A stretch of 32,374 nucleotides of DNA from Acidimicrobiia bacterium (GTDB lineage: Bacteria; Actinomycetota; Acidimicrobiia; IMCC26256; DASPTH01), in contig JBBDHW010000013.1 in NCBI GenBank assembly GCA_040880805.1, positions 8,538 through 40,911 of the forward strand, read 5' to 3'. Below the pieces are notes generated by a model. The model saw only the letters and a program-made list of their open reading frames with translations, was not told the DNA's origin and ran no database searches. Positions within the stretch are counted from its first letter, which is position 1, and each line of letters begins with the position of its first letter. Below, piece after piece: positions 4,031-31,994 of this stretch. The position numbers were made by a program, and so were the translations under genes.

Positions 4031-6232
4031 GTGACGCGACGACCGATCCTGGCAGTCGTCGTCTCGGCCGTGTCGACCTGTCTTTCTCTCACTGGACTTT
4101 CGCTCACTGGCTTCGCGCTCGCCGGAGTCGCCCCGAGCGCCCGAGCAGCCGAGGTCGCGACCTTCTCTGTGCAGGGAAGCGTCGAGCAGGTGGCGGTCAC
4201 CCGAGGGGCACCGGGCGCCCCTGTTCGGCTCCTGAACTCGGAAGGCCACGCGGTCGCGACGAAGGCCGTTGACCGCCAGGGCGCCACGCTGTTCCGCCAC
4301 GTCGAACCGGGCACGGGCTATGTCGTGAAGGTCGGCGGTGTGCGGAGCAAGCCGGTCGAGGTCACGAACCCTGACGACGCGCCCGACCGGTCGCTGTACT
4401 CGTCGCAACATCTCGAACCGGGGTTCGGCTACATCAGGACGCGCGACGGCACCCTGCTGTCGGCAAACGTCACGCTCCCGGGACCGGTCAAAAGCGGCCC
4501 CTACCCGACCGTGGTCGAGTACTCCGGGTACGACCCCTCGAACCCCGGTGGTCGCCAGCCGGCCTCGGGGATCGCGTCCTTTCTCGGGTACGCGACCGTC
4601 GGCGTGAACGTGCGCGGTACCGGCTGTTCGGGGGGCGCCTTCGACTACTTCGAGACGCTCCAGTCGCTCGACGGTTACGACGCGGTGGAAGCCGTGGCCG
4701 CGCAGCCGTGGGTCGCGAACGGCAAGGTCGGGATGGTGGGTATCTCGTACGCGGGGATCACGCAGGTCTTCGTCGCCAAGACCCGTCCACCGCATCTCGC
4801 CGCGATCACGCCGCTGTCCGTGATCGATGACACGTATTGGACGCTGTACCCGGGAGGGATCCTCAACAACGGGTTCGCGGTGCAATGGGGAGAGGATCGT
4901 CAACACGACGCCCGGCCGGCCGCGTCCGACTGGGTCCGCGCGCGGATCGCGGACGGCGACACCACCTGCAAGGCGAACCAGACATTGCGGCTCCAGAGCC
5001 CCGACGTCGAACGCGAGATCGCGCAACTGGGCCCCGACCGCGTGCCGGCCGACCGCGCACTCGCGCCGTCCACGTTCGTTGACAAGATCGACGTTCCGGT
5101 GTTCATCGCGGGGGCATGGCAGGACGAAGAGACCGGGAGCCACTTCGCCGAGATGCTCGACAAGTTCGCGCCGGGCATCGTGGTGAAGGCGACGGTGATG
5201 AACGGGCAGCACGCCGACTCGCTCAATCCGGACGTGATCACCCGGTGGGCGGAGTTCCTCGACTTCTACGTGGCACGCCGGATCCCGAGCATCTCGCCGA
5301 CCGTCCGTGCGATCGCGGCGATCGTGCTCGCGCGGGTGTTCGGTAGCGATTTCACACTGCCGCCCGATCGGTTCGCCGGCCAGAAGAACTTCCACACCGC
5401 CCTCGCGTCGTACCAAGCGGAACCGCCCGTGCGCGTGCTGTTCGACAGCGGAACCGGTGGTTCAGCCGGCGCAACACTCGCGGGCTTCGCGACCACCCAG
5501 CGGTCGTGGCCCCCGCCCACGACGAAGGCGAGCACCTGGTACTTCGAGCCCGGTGGCAGCCTGGGCGACTCGCCTCCCACCGCCGCTACGAGCGACCGAT
5601 TCACCTACGACCCCGCCGCGTTCCCCCGGACCAGCGAGAACGCGTGGTTGCCGCTCCCCGACGGCAAGGCCACCGCGTACGTCAGCGAACCGCTCTCCGC
5701 CGACACCGTGATGCTCGGCTCGGGAAGCGTCGACCTGTGGCTGCGTTCCACCGCACCCGACGTCGACGTCGAGGTGACCGTGAGCGAGGTGCGTCCTGAC
5801 GGCCAGGAGACCTACGTGCAGAGCGGTTGGCTGCGGGCAAGCCGCCGCGCGCTCGACCGGGCCGCGTCCACAGCGCTGCACCCCGTTCCGACGTTCCGTG
5901 AACGGGACGCCACTGCGCTGCCGAAGGGTAAGTTCTCGCTCGTCCGGGTCCCGCTGTTCCCGTTCGGCCATGTGTTCCGCGCTGGGTCGCGCGTGCGCAT
6001 CGCGGTGCAACCGCCCGGAGGCAACCGGCCGTCGTGGGCATTCGATTCGCTCACCTATCCGGAGACGGTCACCAACGACATCGCGGTTGCCCCCGACCAT
6101 GCGTCACGCGCGGTCCTCCCCGTGGTCTCGGGGATCGACGTCCCGACACCGCTCCCCGCCTGTGGCAGCCTTCGGGGCCAACCGTGCCGCGAGTACGTAC
6201 CCACCGCGAACGCGAGCCAAGGACCCCCATGA
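4031..6232 (+). CDS. Secreted CocE/NonD (X-Pro dipeptidyl-peptidase S15) family hydrolase
   Basis: A 733-residue serine hydrolase exported by a signal peptide (MTRR start, hydrophobic core, ARA-A type cleavage near residue 40). The alpha/beta-hydrolase nucleophile is Ser239 in GISYAG, with Asp365 in AGAWQDEE and His394 in NGQHADS. NVRGTGCSGG before it is typical of CocE/S15 enzymes. The C-terminal ~200 residues look like the beta-rich X-Pro dipeptidyl-peptidase C-terminal domain. Family members cleave esters, beta-lactam acyl groups or X-Pro peptides; the substrate cannot be told here. The start is GTG 4031. The signal-peptide core is built from a 15-bp tandem repeat. The stop TGA overlaps the first ATG of the repeat chain leading to the DUF885 gene, so the two genes probably form an operon. 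Confidence 0.88.
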   Translation: MTRRPILAVVVSAVSTCLSLTGLSLTGFALAGVAPSARAAEVATFSVQGSVEQVAVTRGAPGAPVRLLNSEGHAVATKAVDRQGATLFRHVEPGTGYVVKVGGVRSKPVEVTNPDDAPDRSLYSSQHLEPGFGYIRTRDGTLLSANVTLPGPVKSGPYPTVVEYSGYDPSNPGGRQPASGIASFLGYATVGVNVRGTGCSGGAFDYFETLQSLDGYDAVEAVAAQPWVANGKVGMVGISYAGITQVFVAKTRPPHLAAITPLSVIDDTYWTLYPGGILNNGFAVQWGEDRQHDARPAASDWVRARIADGDTTCKANQTLRLQSPDVEREIAQLGPDRVPADRALAPSTFVDKIDVPVFIAGAWQDEETGSHFAEMLDKFAPGIVVKATVMNGQHADSLNPDVITRWAEFLDFYVARRIPSISPTVRAIAAIVLARVFGSDFTLPPDRFAGQKNFHTALASYQAEPPVRVLFDSGTGGSAGATLAGFATTQRSWPPPTTKASTWYFEPGGSLGDSPPTAATSDRFTYDPAAFPRTSENAWLPLPDGKATAYVSEPLSADTVMLGSGSVDLWLRSTAPDVDVEVTVSEVRPDGQETYVQSGWLRASRRALDRAASTALHPVPTFRERDATALPKGKFSLVRVPLFPFGHVFRAGSRVRIAVQPPGGNRPSWAFDSLTYPETVTNDIAVAPDHASRAVLPVVSGIDVPTPLPACGSLRGQPCREYVPTANASQGPP
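4082..4126 (+). repeat. 15-bp tandem repeat x3 in signal-peptide core
   Basis: Three 15-bp units (4082-4096, 4097-4111, 4112-4126) encode the successive pentapeptides LSLTG, LSLTG and FALAG in the hydrophobic core of the hydrolase signal peptide. The first two units differ at only two bases, so the duplication looks recent; the third is more diverged. Confidence 0.6.
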
Positions 6233-6296
6233 CCACCCATCCGGCATGACCACCCATCCGGCATGACCACCCATCCGGCATGACCACCCGATCCGA
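6229..6296 (+). repeat. 17-bp tandem repeat forming a chain of ATGA start/stop overlaps
   Basis: Three exact copies of ATGACCACCCATCCGGC (6229-6245, 6246-6262, 6263-6279) are followed by a diverged copy at 6280 that is the start of the DUF885 gene. Read from its own ATG, each copy encodes Met-Thr-Thr-His-Pro-Ala and then TGA, and that TGA overlaps the ATG of the next copy. The first ATG overlaps the hydrolase stop in the same way. The only Shine-Dalgarno-like sequence, AAGGA at 6219-6223, sits five bases before the first ATG, not before the DUF885 ATG 57 bases downstream. Confidence 0.9.
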
Positions 6297-7968
6297 CGTA
6301 TACGAGCTTGCGGATGCGTACGTCGAACGGTTCGCCGCCCTCGATCCGCTCTCGGCAACCAGTGAGGGGATCACGGGCCACGACCACGAGATGACCGACT
6401 TCTCGCCCGACGGCGTCGACGAGCGCGCCGAGCACGATCGTGCCACGTTGCGCGCGCTTGTGGCCGCGACCGCGGAAACCGATGCCGACCGCGTCGCTGC
6501 CGGCGCGCTGCGCGAGCGGCTCGAGCTCGCGCTCGAAGAGCACGACGCCGGCGAGCGCCTCCGCGATCTCCGGGTCCTCGGCAGCCCGGTGCAAGAAGTT
6601 CGCATGGTCTTCGACCTGATGCCGCGCGAATCCGAGGAGCACTGGCAGACGATCGCGGAGCGCCTCGCGCTCGTCCCGCAAGGGCTGGCCGGAGTCGTTG
6701 CCGGGTTCAACGAGGGGGTGCAACAGGGCATCGTGGCCGCGCGCCGTCAGGCGGTGGCGTGCGCGCGGCAGGCCGATGTGTGGGGCGGTGTCGACGGATC
6801 GACGCGACCGTTCTTCCTCACCCTCGTCGACGACTACGACGCGCGTGGGTTCTCCGATTCGGCGTTCCGTCACCGGCTCGAAGAGCTGGCGAGTCGCGCC
6901 ACTGCTGCCTACGCCGCGCTCGGTCGCTACCTCGTCGACGAGTACGCGCCGCACGCGGCCGAGCACGACCCGGTCGGGCGCGACCGCTACTCCCTCTACG
7001 CGCGGCGCTTCAACGGCATCGCGCTCGACCTCGACGAGACCTACGCGTGGGGCTGGGAGGAGCTCCACCGCATCGAGCACGCGATGCGCTCCGTCGCCGA
7101 GCGCATCGTCCCCGGGATCGACGTCGACGCGGTGATCGAGCACCTCGAGACCGACCCGAATCGCGCCATCGAGGGCGTCGACGAATTCCAGCGGTGGAAC
7201 CAGAACCTGCTCGACACCACGGTCGCCGAGCTCGACGGCACCCACTTCGACATCCCCGATCCGGTGAAGCGGGTGGAGGCGATGATCGCCCCACCCGGCG
7301 GCGCCGCAGCGATGTACTACACCGGCCCGTCGGAAGACTTCAGCCGGCCCGGGCGCACGTGGTACCCCACGCTCGGCAAGACGCGCTTTCCCCTCTGGGG
7401 TGAGGTGTCGATCTGCTATCACGAGGGCGTCCCCGGTCATCATCTGCAGATCGCGCAGGTTCGGTACCTCGCCGACACGTTGAGCCGCTACCAGCGCACG
7501 CTCGCCGGCACGTCCGGCCACGCGGAGGGCTGGGCGCTGTACGCCGAGCGGCTCATGGGCGAGCTCGGTTACCTCGACGACCCCGCGTACGAGCTCGGCA
7601 TGCTGCGCGCGCAGGCGATGCGCGCGGTACGCGTCGTCGTCGACATCGGCATGCACCTCGAGCTCGCGATCCCAGGGGACGAGCGCTACTGCCCGGGCGA
7701 CACGTGGACTCCCGACCTCGCGCTCCCGTTCGTGATCGAGCGCAGCAAGTTCCCGCCCGACTTCATGGCGAGCGAGGTCGACCGGTACCTCGGCCTCCCC
7801 GGGCAGGCCATCAGCTACAAGATCGGCGAGCGGGTGTGGCTCCGCGCGCGTGACGACGCCCGCCGGCGCACCGGCGACACATTCGACCTCAAGGAGTTCC
7901 ACCGCCGCGCGCTCGATCTCGGCCCGATGGGCCTCGCCCAGCTCGAGAGCGAGCTCGCTCGTCTGTGA
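6280..7968 (+). CDS. DUF885 family protein, putative zinc metallopeptidase
   Basis: A 562-residue DUF885 protein with no signal peptide visible. DUF885 proteins are poorly characterised and are grouped with zincin-type metallopeptidases. The HEGVPGHH motif at residues 381-388 offers two histidines and a glutamate as in HExxH-like sites, and SGHAEGWALYAERL downstream would supply a further Glu ligand. The remainder is predicted mostly helical. The ATG at 6280 is the last of four tandem ATGs and has no Shine-Dalgarno sequence of its own, so initiation probably depends on translation arriving from upstream. The neighbouring secreted hydrolase suggests a joint role in peptide or ester breakdown (inference). 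It ends 12 bp before the convergent CYTH gene. Confidence 0.88.
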   Translation: MTTRSDVYELADAYVERFAALDPLSATSEGITGHDHEMTDFSPDGVDERAEHDRATLRALVAATAETDADRVAAGALRERLELALEEHDAGERLRDLRVLGSPVQEVRMVFDLMPRESEEHWQTIAERLALVPQGLAGVVAGFNEGVQQGIVAARRQAVACARQADVWGGVDGSTRPFFLTLVDDYDARGFSDSAFRHRLEELASRATAAYAALGRYLVDEYAPHAAEHDPVGRDRYSLYARRFNGIALDLDETYAWGWEELHRIEHAMRSVAERIVPGIDVDAVIEHLETDPNRAIEGVDEFQRWNQNLLDTTVAELDGTHFDIPDPVKRVEAMIAPPGGAAAMYYTGPSEDFSRPGRTWYPTLGKTRFPLWGEVSICYHEGVPGHHLQIAQVRYLADTLSRYQRTLAGTSGHAEGWALYAERLMGELGYLDDPAYELGMLRAQAMRAVRVVVDIGMHLELAIPGDERYCPGDTWTPDLALPFVIERSKFPPDFMASEVDRYLGLPGQAISYKIGERVWLRARDDARRRTGDTFDLKEFHRRALDLGPMGLAQLESELARL

Positions 7969-8850: not shown

Positions 8851-8876
8851 CGAGCCCGTGCTACTGGTCGGGCTCG
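8851..8876 (-). terminator. Possible intrinsic terminator or attenuator after cydB
   Basis: Perfect 8-bp arms CGAGCCCG / CGGGCTCG with a 10-nt loop straddle the cydB stop codon. On the transcribed (minus) strand the stem is followed by GTTTGTCC, a weak U-tract. It could reduce read-through into the CYTH gene. The tract is short, so confidence is limited. Confidence 0.4.
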
Positions 8877-9862
8877 AGCATGCTCTTCTGGTCGAGCACG
8901 TACAGCAGTCCCAGTGACGGCAGGATCACGATCGCAGCGATCACGAAGACCACGAGGATCGTCGTGAGCGTGCCATCGGGTGCCGCCGCCTGCGACACCG
9001 TGAGCGTCTCGGGGAGGATGTAGTCCCACTGCGCGACGCCCCAGCCGAGAACCACGGTGGCCACCGCGCCGATCGCCAGGATCCGCGCGCCCCGCGCGAC
9101 ATCGCGCAGGAGCAAGACGAGCGAACCGACACCGCACAACGCAGAGATGATTACGAACGGGAGCGCTCTCGACGTGAGACCATCGAAGACGTAGGGCGAA
9201 TCGTCGCGCAAGAGGAAGATGCCGATCAGCGCGACCACGCCGGTAACGACGGCGACTGCAACCGCACGACGCCGGAAGTATTCGACCATCGCGGGGTCGC
9301 CGAAGCGCCGGGCGTCGAAGAACAGGTAGACCGCCGCGAGGTACGCGCACACCGTGACCGCGAGGACGCCACCGAGGATCGACGTTGCGTTGAGCCAACT
9401 CGACCAGAGGTCACCGGCCTTGCCGCCCGCCGGCACCCGACCGGAGGCGATCGCCCCCGCGACTGCGCCCATGCAGAACGGCACGAGCACCGACGAACCC
9501 GCGAACGCAGCACCGAAGTTCCGCCGACTCGACGTGCGCGACACCTCCTTGCGGAACGCAAAGCTCGATCCGCGCAACACGATGCCGAGAGCAGCAAGCG
9601 ACAGTGGCACGAACAGCGTGAGCGTGATCGACGCGAACGCCTCCGGAAACCCGGTCCACAGCACCACGAGGCAGAAGATCAGCCAGACGTGGTTCGCCTC
9701 CCACACCGGTCCGATGGAGTGCGCGACCACCGCACGAGGGCGCTCACCACGTTCGGGGCCACCGGCGACAAGGTCCCAGAAGCCCGCGCCGAAGTCGGCT
9801 CCGCCGAAGATCGCGTAGGCGGTGACGCCGAAGAACAGCACGACCGCGACGGCGTCGTCCAT
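8861..9862 (-). CDS. cydB: Cytochrome bd ubiquinol/menaquinol oxidase subunit II
   Basis: A 333-residue polytopic membrane protein, partner of CydA in the cytochrome bd terminal oxidase, which reduces O2 to water with quinol electrons. The family start is clear: FGVTAYAIFGGADFGAGFWDL and, further on, GPVWEANHVWLIF. About eight hydrophobic helices are visible along the chain. The ATG at 9862 overlaps the cydA stop by one base (TGATG), implying coupled translation and matched stoichiometry. No cydCD-type ABC assembly genes are in the window; they are either elsewhere or absent. Confidence 0.96.
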   Translation of the reverse strand: MDDAVAVVLFFGVTAYAIFGGADFGAGFWDLVAGGPERGERPRAVVAHSIGPVWEANHVWLIFCLVVLWTGFPEAFASITLTLFVPLSLAALGIVLRGSSFAFRKEVSRTSSRRNFGAAFAGSSVLVPFCMGAVAGAIASGRVPAGGKAGDLWSSWLNATSILGGVLAVTVCAYLAAVYLFFDARRFGDPAMVEYFRRRAVAVAVVTGVVALIGIFLLRDDSPYVFDGLTSRALPFVIISALCGVGSLVLLLRDVARGARILAIGAVATVVLGWGVAQWDYILPETLTVSQAAAPDGTLTTILVVFVIAAIVILPSLGLLYVLDQKSMLEPDQ

Positions 9863-11280
9863 CAGACCCCCACCCGCTCGGCCGCCGCGTCGGGAAGCGG
9901 CTCACGCGGCCCGTACGGCCCGCCGTGCTCGTCGGTGCCCTCGGCGCGGAAGCGCCGACTCATCGCGCGCAGGATGAGCACGAGGGTCACCGCCACTCCG
10001 AGGTACAGGCCGAGGATGACGAGGAACGTGGCCCACACGCCCGTATTCGTCGTCGCCGCCTGTTCGACCTTCATGTAGCCGGTGACGATCCACGGTTGAC
10101 GGCCGACTTCGGTGACGACCCAGCCGGCTTCCATCGCGAGTACCGCCGCGACCCCCGCGCCCGACGCGAGCCAGAGGAAGAGCCGCATCTTCGGGATGTC
10201 GCGCCGGAAGAGCCATGACAGCCCGTACCAGACCGACAACAGGAACAGGAGCGTCGCGAGGCCCACCATGACGTCCCACGCAAGGTGCACGACATTCACT
10301 TCTTCGGTGGTCGGTCGCTCGTTCGCCGGGAAGCTGTCGAGTCCCTTGATCTGGGTACTGGTGCCGGTGCTCGGATCTGAAAGGAACGACGCCAGGCCCG
10401 GGATGGCGATGCCGCCGCTGACGGTTCCGTCGGAGTTCAAGTGCCCGAACAGCGTCTCCGGTACGTCGGTCGCCGTCTTGGGGACGAGCTCGATCGCGGC
10501 GAACTTCGTGGGCTCGTTGTTGTAGACCCAGCGCGCGACCTGGTCGCCCACGAACATCTGGACCGGCGCGGCGATGGCAGCCACCGTGAACGGGATGATG
10601 AACCCGAGCCGGTGATACCGGTCGCGTCTCCCCCGCAACATTCCCATGGCGTACACGGAAGCGATCATGAAGCCGCCGACGAGGTACGCCGCGACGAGCA
10701 TGTGCGCGGTCTCGTACGGGAACGCGTTGTTGAAGATCACGTCGACCGGGTTCACGTCGACGACCTTGCCCGCCGAGTTCAGCGTGAACCCGGCGGGTTC
10801 GTTCATCCACGCGTTGGCCGCGACCACCGACGCGGTACCGCCGATGCCGGCGATCACGATGGGCACGCCCGTCCAGAAATGCGGCCATGGCTTCAGGCGC
10901 CTCCAGCCGTAGATGTAGATCGCGAGGAAGATCGCCTCGGTGAAGAAGAACAAGCCTTCGATCATGAAGGGGATGCCGAACGCGTCGCCGAAGCGACCCA
11001 TGAAGTTGGGCCACAACAGCCCGAACTCGAACGTGAGCACGGTCCCGGTGACGGCGCCGACGGCGAACGTGACCGCCATGTACTTCGACCATCGTTGCGC
11101 GAGGAGCAACGCGTCGGCATCGCCCTTCTTGATCGCGCGGTAGTTCGCGACGAGCACCATGAAGGCCCACGACACGCCCAGCGGCACCAGGATGATGTGC
11201 GTGCCGAGCGTGAAGGCCATCTGGGTGCGAGCCCACGGCACCGGATCGACCGCGAGCACCAACGACTGGATGTTCAGCAC
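9862..11280 (-). CDS. cydA: Cytochrome bd ubiquinol/menaquinol oxidase subunit I
   Basis: A 472-residue, nine-helix membrane subunit carrying the three haems and the quinol site. The ligand region is visible as AFTLGTHIILVPLG (His28, equivalent to E. coli His19), as NNAFPYETAHMLVAAY, and as the GRQPW motif in VVTEVGRQPWIV. At 472 residues, with a modest hydrophilic stretch around residues 255-325, it looks like a short-Q-loop (CIO-like) type. The start is GTG 11280, supported by GGGGGAGG about seven bases upstream. The 167-bp gap to the divergent SHOCT gene must contain both promoters; I could not pick out a convincing Rex or ResD operator. Confidence 0.96.
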   Translation of the reverse strand: MLNIQSLVLAVDPVPWARTQMAFTLGTHIILVPLGVSWAFMVLVANYRAIKKGDADALLLAQRWSKYMAVTFAVGAVTGTVLTFEFGLLWPNFMGRFGDAFGIPFMIEGLFFFTEAIFLAIYIYGWRRLKPWPHFWTGVPIVIAGIGGTASVVAANAWMNEPAGFTLNSAGKVVDVNPVDVIFNNAFPYETAHMLVAAYLVGGFMIASVYAMGMLRGRRDRYHRLGFIIPFTVAAIAAPVQMFVGDQVARWVYNNEPTKFAAIELVPKTATDVPETLFGHLNSDGTVSGGIAIPGLASFLSDPSTGTSTQIKGLDSFPANERPTTEEVNVVHLAWDVMVGLATLLFLLSVWYGLSWLFRRDIPKMRLFLWLASGAGVAAVLAMEAGWVVTEVGRQPWIVTGYMKVEQAATTNTGVWATFLVILGLYLGVAVTLVLILRAMSRRFRAEGTDEHGGPYGPREPLPDAAAERVGV

Positions 11281-31599: not shown

Positions 31600-31950
31600 T
31601 CAGAAGGTGATGGTGCGGTCGGCCCACAGCACCCAGTCGGTGAGCTCCTCGAGGGTGGAGCGCCGCGCCCCGCCGGTGAGCATCTCGTCGGTAAGCCCCC
31701 GCGCGTCGAGGCACGTGCCACAGCAGCCGACCTCGGCGCCGTGGCGGGCCGCGGTCGCGATCATGCGGTCGAGGTGGTAGTAGCCGTCGGGGACCTTCTG
31801 GCCCGTCACGGCGCACCCCACCGCGTCGCCGATCAGAAACACCCGCACCGCAACGTCGTCGCGGTGCGCCAGGGAACCTGCGAGCCGTAGGCCGTTGAAG
31901 GAGCGCTCCGTCCCGTAGGCGGGGTCGTTGAGGATCAACAAGAGATTCAT
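31600..31950 (-). CDS. DsrE-family sulfur-relay-like protein
   Basis: A 116-residue cytosolic protein of the DsrE/DsrF/YchN fold. MNLLLILNDPAYGTERSFNG is the usual opening strand-helix, and VFLIGDAVGCAVTGQKVP is the second. The cysteine motif CCGTCLDARGL (Cys76, Cys77, Cys80) sits where the persulfide-carrying cysteine is found in sulfur-relay members. Paired with an SQR-like flavoprotein, it probably binds or transfers sulfane sulfur (inference). ATG 31950 has an ideal AAGGAGGT five bases upstream, and the Shine-Dalgarno segment is present three times in tandem. An in-frame GTG at 31968 is a weaker alternative. Confidence 0.88.
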   Translation of the reverse strand: MNLLLILNDPAYGTERSFNGLRLAGSLAHRDDVAVRVFLIGDAVGCAVTGQKVPDGYYHLDRMIATAARHGAEVGCCGTCLDARGLTDEMLTGGARRSTLEELTDWVLWADRTITF

Positions 31951-31994
31951 CTCCACCTCCTTCTCCACCCTCCTTCTCCACCCTCCTTGCTCAT
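31947..31994 (-). CDS. Possible 15-residue leader peptide of the dsrE operon
   Basis: ATG 31994 reads MSKEGGEGGWRRRWR and stops at a TGA that overlaps the dsrE ATG (ATGA at 31947-31950). The reading frame is supplied by the triplicated Shine-Dalgarno segment, so it could be an accident of that repeat. No good ribosome binding site precedes it. If translated, it would couple to dsrE. Confidence 0.3.
   Translation of the reverse strand: MSKEGGEGGWRRRWR
31951..31988 (-). repeat. Triplicated Shine-Dalgarno segment upstream of dsrE
   Basis: On the coding (minus) strand the order is AAGGAGGGTGGAG twice (31976-31988, 31963-31975), then AAGGAGGTGGAG (31951-31962), immediately before the dsrE ATG. 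Each unit contains a full anti-16S match. Only the last is at optimal spacing; the others lie 13 and 26 bp further upstream. Confidence 0.8.

Follow-up and report, generated by a model that had tools for sequence, protein, structure and literature searches.

A 17-bp tandem repeat chains three minigenes between a hydrolase gene and a DUF885 gene in an Acidimicrobiia genome

Introduction

How do ribosomes reach a gene whose start lacks a Shine-Dalgarno-like site and is separated from the preceding stop codon by copies of a short tandem repeat? This question arises in a 32,374-nucleotide stretch of DNA (hereafter the window) from an Acidimicrobiia draft genome (3.49 Mb, 69 contigs). Here a gene for an S15/CocE-NonD-type hydrolase (4031–6232, plus strand; PF02129, PF08530, TIGR00976), with a signal-peptide-like N-terminus, is followed by a gene for a 562-aa DUF885 protein (6280–7968, plus strand; PF05960, E = 2.7e-146). 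A preliminary description of the locus had proposed that ribosomes step through minigenes formed by the repeat, and that repeat number tunes DUF885 output. We asked what the junction consists of, where it came from, and whether comparable junctions exist in other Actinomycetota.

Results

A chain of four stop-start overlaps

The hydrolase stop codon (TGA, 6230–6232) overlaps the first of four ATGs (6229, 6246, 6263 and 6280) that follow one another in exact 17-nt steps, all in an ATGA context. The first three open identical plus-strand minigenes, ATGACCACCCATCCGGCATGA, each of six codons and a stop (ATG ACC ACC CAT CCG GCA TGA; MTTHPA). Minigene 1 occupies 6229–6249; minigene 2 (6246–6266) starts within a 4-nt ATGA overlap with the stop of minigene 1; and the stop of minigene 3 (6263–6283) overlaps the DUF885 start in the same way (ATGA, 6280–6283). 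The underlying 17-bp array (6228–6295, plus strand), with three of three units identical, is the top-scoring TRF repeat of the window (127; runner-up, 71). The TRF count is 3.9 copies, since the opening codons of DUF885 (ATGACCACCC-GATCCGA) are similar to the unit, which makes the DUF885 start itself a diverged fourth copy. The second-strongest tandem repeat of the window, at 31950–31988, consists of 3.1 copies of a 13-bp unit, TCTCCACCCTCCT. A simple overlap occurs elsewhere in the window between the adjacent genes for cytochrome bd oxidase subunits I and II (8861–11280, minus strand; PF01654, PF02322), where position 9862 belongs both to the stop codon of subunit I and to the start codon of subunit II (a -1 type overlap).

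The sole Shine-Dalgarno-like site, AAGGA (6219–6223, plus strand), lies 5 nt upstream of the ATG at 6229 and ends 56 nt before the ATG at 6280. Predicted pairing with a generic anti-Shine-Dalgarno sequence is strongest at 6229 (-4.9 kcal/mol, vs -1.7 kcal/mol at 6246, 6263 and 6280). Measured directly, the DUF885 start lies 47 nt beyond the hydrolase stop, and stop and start overlap only by way of the three minigenes. The preliminary description had read the junction as four ATGA overlaps linking the hydrolase stop, three six-codon frames and DUF885, with a single Shine-Dalgarno match serving the first ATG, and on both counts the sequence agrees. Neither a promoter nor a terminator was found at the hydrolase–DUF885 junction. 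An RNA element at the array was considered and rejected, as the window has no Rfam match and the folding z-score is -0.77.

Repeat length preserves coupling at any copy number

The chain can form because the unit length, 17, is 2 mod 3, which places the stop of each six-codon frame over the next start. Computed for 0–5 units, the chain leads to the native DUF885 start by -4 overlaps alone, which upholds the earlier claim that coupling survives at every copy number. Units of 18 bp would instead put the first ATG in frame with DUF885 and lengthen its N-terminus, and units of 16 bp would give a working chain for even copy numbers only. More generally, any duplication that spans an ATGA, has a length of 2 mod 3 and contains no further in-frame stop links to itself, and this is why coupling is kept at any copy number. 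Such tolerance comes automatically; it needs no adaptive design and is not by itself proof of design.

The array probably arose by local duplication of a coupled junction

Order-level relatives of this genome correspond to metagenome bins of Acidimicrobiia and other Actinomycetota. In three order-level relatives (G037, G035 and G011) the hydrolase and DUF885 genes are adjacent and overlap directly, through ATGA, GTGA and ATGGCTGA (a -8 type overlap), respectively. No repeat is present at this junction in any of the three; these related genomes, a kind of comparison to which the preliminary description had pointed as a check on repeat number, carry a direct overlap and nothing more between the two genes. 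Coupling of the pair by overlap most likely predates the repeat. As the relatives overlap directly without a repeat, the array would have arisen when a stop-start junction already coupled in the ancestor was duplicated locally in tandem.

The distribution of the unit points the same way. Copies with 0–1 mismatches occur at this locus only, and the rest of the genome holds just one single match with 2 mismatches (shuffled window sequence gives a mean of 0.4 matches at up to 3 mismatches). A unit that resembles the DUF885 start and is almost absent elsewhere has the look of local duplication rather than of an inserted element. A genome-dispersed repeat family is ruled out, the unit being confined to one locus bar that single match. 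When the collected loci were scanned for at least two chained minigenes, identical units appeared at this locus only, and the other chains look like chance. We consider it probable, though well short of certain, that the array is a local duplication of a coupled junction and that ribosomes are relayed through its minigenes to DUF885.

Similar chains precede genes in other Actinomycetota

We searched for four ATGAs at fixed spacing with a period of 17 (396 Actinomycetota genomes) or 14 (346), and with control periods of 16 (396 Actinomycetota genomes) and 13 (346), inspecting all distinct arrays and scanning the downstream ORFs. Of 18 arrays of period 14 or 17, 11 end on an ATG that starts a recognisable protein (the window's DUF885, a ModB-type permease, PBP2, RecG, Prok-JAB, an epimerase, RuvX, a MalG-type permease, a HAD hydrolase, UvrA and a PALP enzyme), vs 0 of 7 of period 13 or 16 (Fisher one-sided p = 0.007, in a small, post hoc test). 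With the window locus and the AT-rich UvrA match removed, p = 0.014; the latter (L212) has an in-frame stop within its units. Two of the period-14 matches (L206, L215) have a true period of 7, and one period-16 match (L219) a true period of 8. In three of these arrays besides the window's, a real upstream gene stops on the first ATGA: SelD and JAB are joined by five 17-bp units encoding MKVVRE (L193, genome G213), MalF and MalG by six 14-bp units encoding MRSQR (L209, genome G389), and AlaS and RuvX by three imperfect 14-bp units (L207). Before PBP2, L190 (G007; about 1500–1551 of the reverse complement) has non-identical minigenes at 17-nt spacing, MNQIRI, MNQLLP and MKTICP; they represent an old array in decay or else a chance match.

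Could the array be a neutral or mildly harmful by-product of slippage, its minigenes unused and DUF885 either binding 30S subunits on its own or poorly expressed? This genome is not poor in tandem repeats (18 TRF rows reach a score of 100 or more in a sample of 0.78 Mb, overlapping rows counted separately), and reversed-pattern controls, with matches in 4 and 5 genomes vs 8 and 8 for the true pattern, are not far below it. ATGA arrays also exist without a recognisable downstream gene (L192, L194 and L199, all of period 17), and these count against a universal role. Against a by-product stand the absence of a Shine-Dalgarno sequence at 6280, where no promoter-like site was found, and the tendency of 2 mod 3 arrays, but not 1 mod 3 arrays, to sit at gene starts. 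On balance, we regard a by-product as rather unlikely. A trivial origin in a repeat-rich genome was rejected, since most strong TRF periods in the 0.78-Mb sample are multiples of 3 and the sole listed period of 17 is the array itself.

Two of the arrays just mentioned, L192 and L199, come from the same genome (G343) and have related 17-bp units (ATGACGATCGAGCCTCC and ATGATGATCGAGCCCAC), one of them right after a BenE-family gene; this is perhaps a dispersed repeat. Viral contigs gave no mod-3 contrast among the matches listed, in which ORFs of at least 80 codons were opened by 5 of 58 repetitive arrays of period 17 vs 4 of 59 of period 16. Two viral contigs (L323, L328) carry arrays of ATGACCCA (8 bp, likewise 2 mod 3), with the minigene MTQ, immediately upstream of a gene whose own start reads ATGACCTC.

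Unit number differs between species at an analogous junction

The MalF–MalG junction offered a view of copy number across species. Of 30 loci inspected in the genus of G389, a plain ATGA overlap is present in 23 and one 14-bp unit in 5; the remaining two are G389, with six units, and L424, with a different insertion. The latter (in G451) consists of 12-bp units (ATGAGCGGAACG and variants), whose length of 0 mod 3 keeps the frame and would lengthen MalG at its N-terminus. Pattern matching across 255 genomes of the genus added one further one-unit species (G588) and found no intermediate unit numbers. G561, the best-matching relative of G389 (DNA identity of 89% over the query), carries one unit vs six. 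Across this 0/1/6 series (L209/L422 in G389; L423, L437, L438, L441, L445 and L472 in the same genus), unit number differs between species and the chain is intact every time. The SelD–JAB array of G213 is likewise missing from the same-genus G191, which has a plain ATGA, and other relatives in the family of G213 mostly have ATGA, GTGA or TTGA overlaps. Three unrelated junctions thus show an overlap in relatives that is expanded in one lineage. Unlike the window's 17-bp unit, the MalF–MalG unit brings a Shine-Dalgarno-like GAGGAG with it, and efficiency may therefore not be the same in the two arrays.

These data bear on the proposal that slippage changes copy number within populations and that each unit cuts DUF885 output by a set factor, as a selected rheostat. 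Identical units suggest recent amplification, the analogous MalF–MalG junction varies between species (0, 1 or 6 units), and the chain persists at every copy number. Yet the comparison genus is mostly unit-free, with no intermediate number in either the 30 loci or the 255 genomes, and tolerance of copy number is automatic for any length of 2 mod 3. A selected, slippage-tuned rheostat at DUF885 is a hypothesis, unproven and to our minds distinctly unlikely.

An assembly artefact, with a true genome of zero or one unit, is very improbable: although the assembly is a 69-contig draft and the units are identical, the 68-bp array fits within an ordinary read, short-read assembly is prone to collapse copies rather than add them, and comparable arrays are found in assemblies of one or few contigs (G343, G389).

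Discussion

We suggest the following course of events for the relay. In the ancestor, the hydrolase stop would have directly overlapped the DUF885 start, as it does in the three relatives, and a short duplication of this junction would have been amplified to three 17-bp units. Amplification would have pushed the DUF885 start 47 nt past the stop and left the ribosome-binding site behind, the arrangement now visible in the sequence. Ribosomes would then hop from the hydrolase through three successive MTTHPA minigenes to DUF885 by termination-reinitiation. We infer that such duplications can be tolerated whatever their copy number, since the relay holds the gene within reach and does not alter its N-terminus; recurrence of such arrays in other actinobacteria and the 0, 1 or 6 units at a single junction lend support by analogy.

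Published work on reinitiation makes this scheme plausible. Efficient termination-reinitiation is confined to a few nucleotides, and in E. coli gene pairs a 38-nt gap lowered reinitiation by 80–90% in two pairs and left none in a third (PMC10666635); coupling across longer gaps is reported by other studies as cited there. In mycobacteria, PPE2 expression needs an AUGA overlap with a short ORF and proceeds mainly by termination-reinitiation (PMC11260477). Given this dependence on distance, a 47-nt gap with neither a Shine-Dalgarno sequence nor minigenes would probably break or strongly weaken the coupling of DUF885. Some loss of DUF885 output with each hop is likely. Counting against the relay, minigenes 2 and 3 and the DUF885 start lack Shine-Dalgarno sequences, the mod-3 contrast is small, post hoc and absent from the viral contigs, and some period-17 arrays lead to no recognisable gene. 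For the relay envisaged in the preliminary description, the chain, the ancestral overlap, the arithmetic for 0–5 units and the variation at an analogous junction all speak in favour, and translation of the minigenes is the step we infer. Passage through the minigenes appears the most likely mechanism, a plausible one that is strengthened by the relatives and analogues.

One simple rule, a unit of 2 mod 3 across an ATGA, would let repeats within operons grow while frames and coupling stay intact. Whether such duplications form a general, selected class of expression-tuning elements in actinobacteria, in which copy number would determine how many reinitiation hops are made, and thereby the ratio of two operon proteins, with reading frames always intact, is another matter, and we are doubtful that they do. 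The natural 0/1/6-unit series could be used to measure the efficiency of a single termination-reinitiation hop, a quantity that in diverse bacteria is still to be quantified according to the authors of PMC6728339. Minigene chains of this kind go unreported by ordinary gene callers. In the open-licence literature we came across neither an account of ATGA chains that are short and locally made nor a statement of the mod-3 rule, which is not proof of novelty.

Several known systems share features with the window array. Like phase-variable and VNTR contingency loci, it places a tandem repeat of potentially changeable copy number at a translation start. Whereas frameshifts are what switch genes on and off at classical coding repeats, copy number here cannot frameshift DUF885. 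Overlapping termination-reinitiation pairs (PMC6728339, PMC10666635) have the same -4 ATGA or GTGA stop-start overlap as the relatives of the window pair; in the window, a series of four such overlaps stands in place of one, and three minigenes separate the two genes. In uPPE2–PPE2 (PMC11260477) and the axe-txe minigenes (PMC8708949), a short ORF delivers ribosomes to the next start, as proposed here for the relay, and mutations in the starts and stops of the axe-txe minigenes lower txe translation (PMC8708949). Neither is described as a tandem repeat, unlike the window array; uPPE2 is part of a riboswitch leader, and the stop of axe-txe mg2 lies 15 nt before the txe start.

The closest parallel is the MIRU family, elements that insert at gene starts and couple a short ORF at -4 spacing (PMC12548453). 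The senX3-regX3 MIRU, described by Supply et al. 1997 as cited in that review, comprises three 77-bp units in H37Rv and two 77-bp units plus one of 53 bp in CDC1551 (PMC4213456), so that the units there vary between strains. Both systems have tandem repeats at a gene start and a short ORF coupled with -4 spacing, and MIRU units of 77 and 53 bp are 2 mod 3, as are 17 and 14. Yet MIRUs are longer (77 or 53 vs 17 bp), share related sequence across many loci and have been described as apparently mobile, whereas the window array occupies a single locus and its unit is similar to the beginning of the gene that follows it. By its sequence, the array would work like a miniature MIRU and yet is no MIRU, being 17 bp long, confined to one locus and made of local sequence; it suggests that MIRU-like arrays could begin as local duplications.
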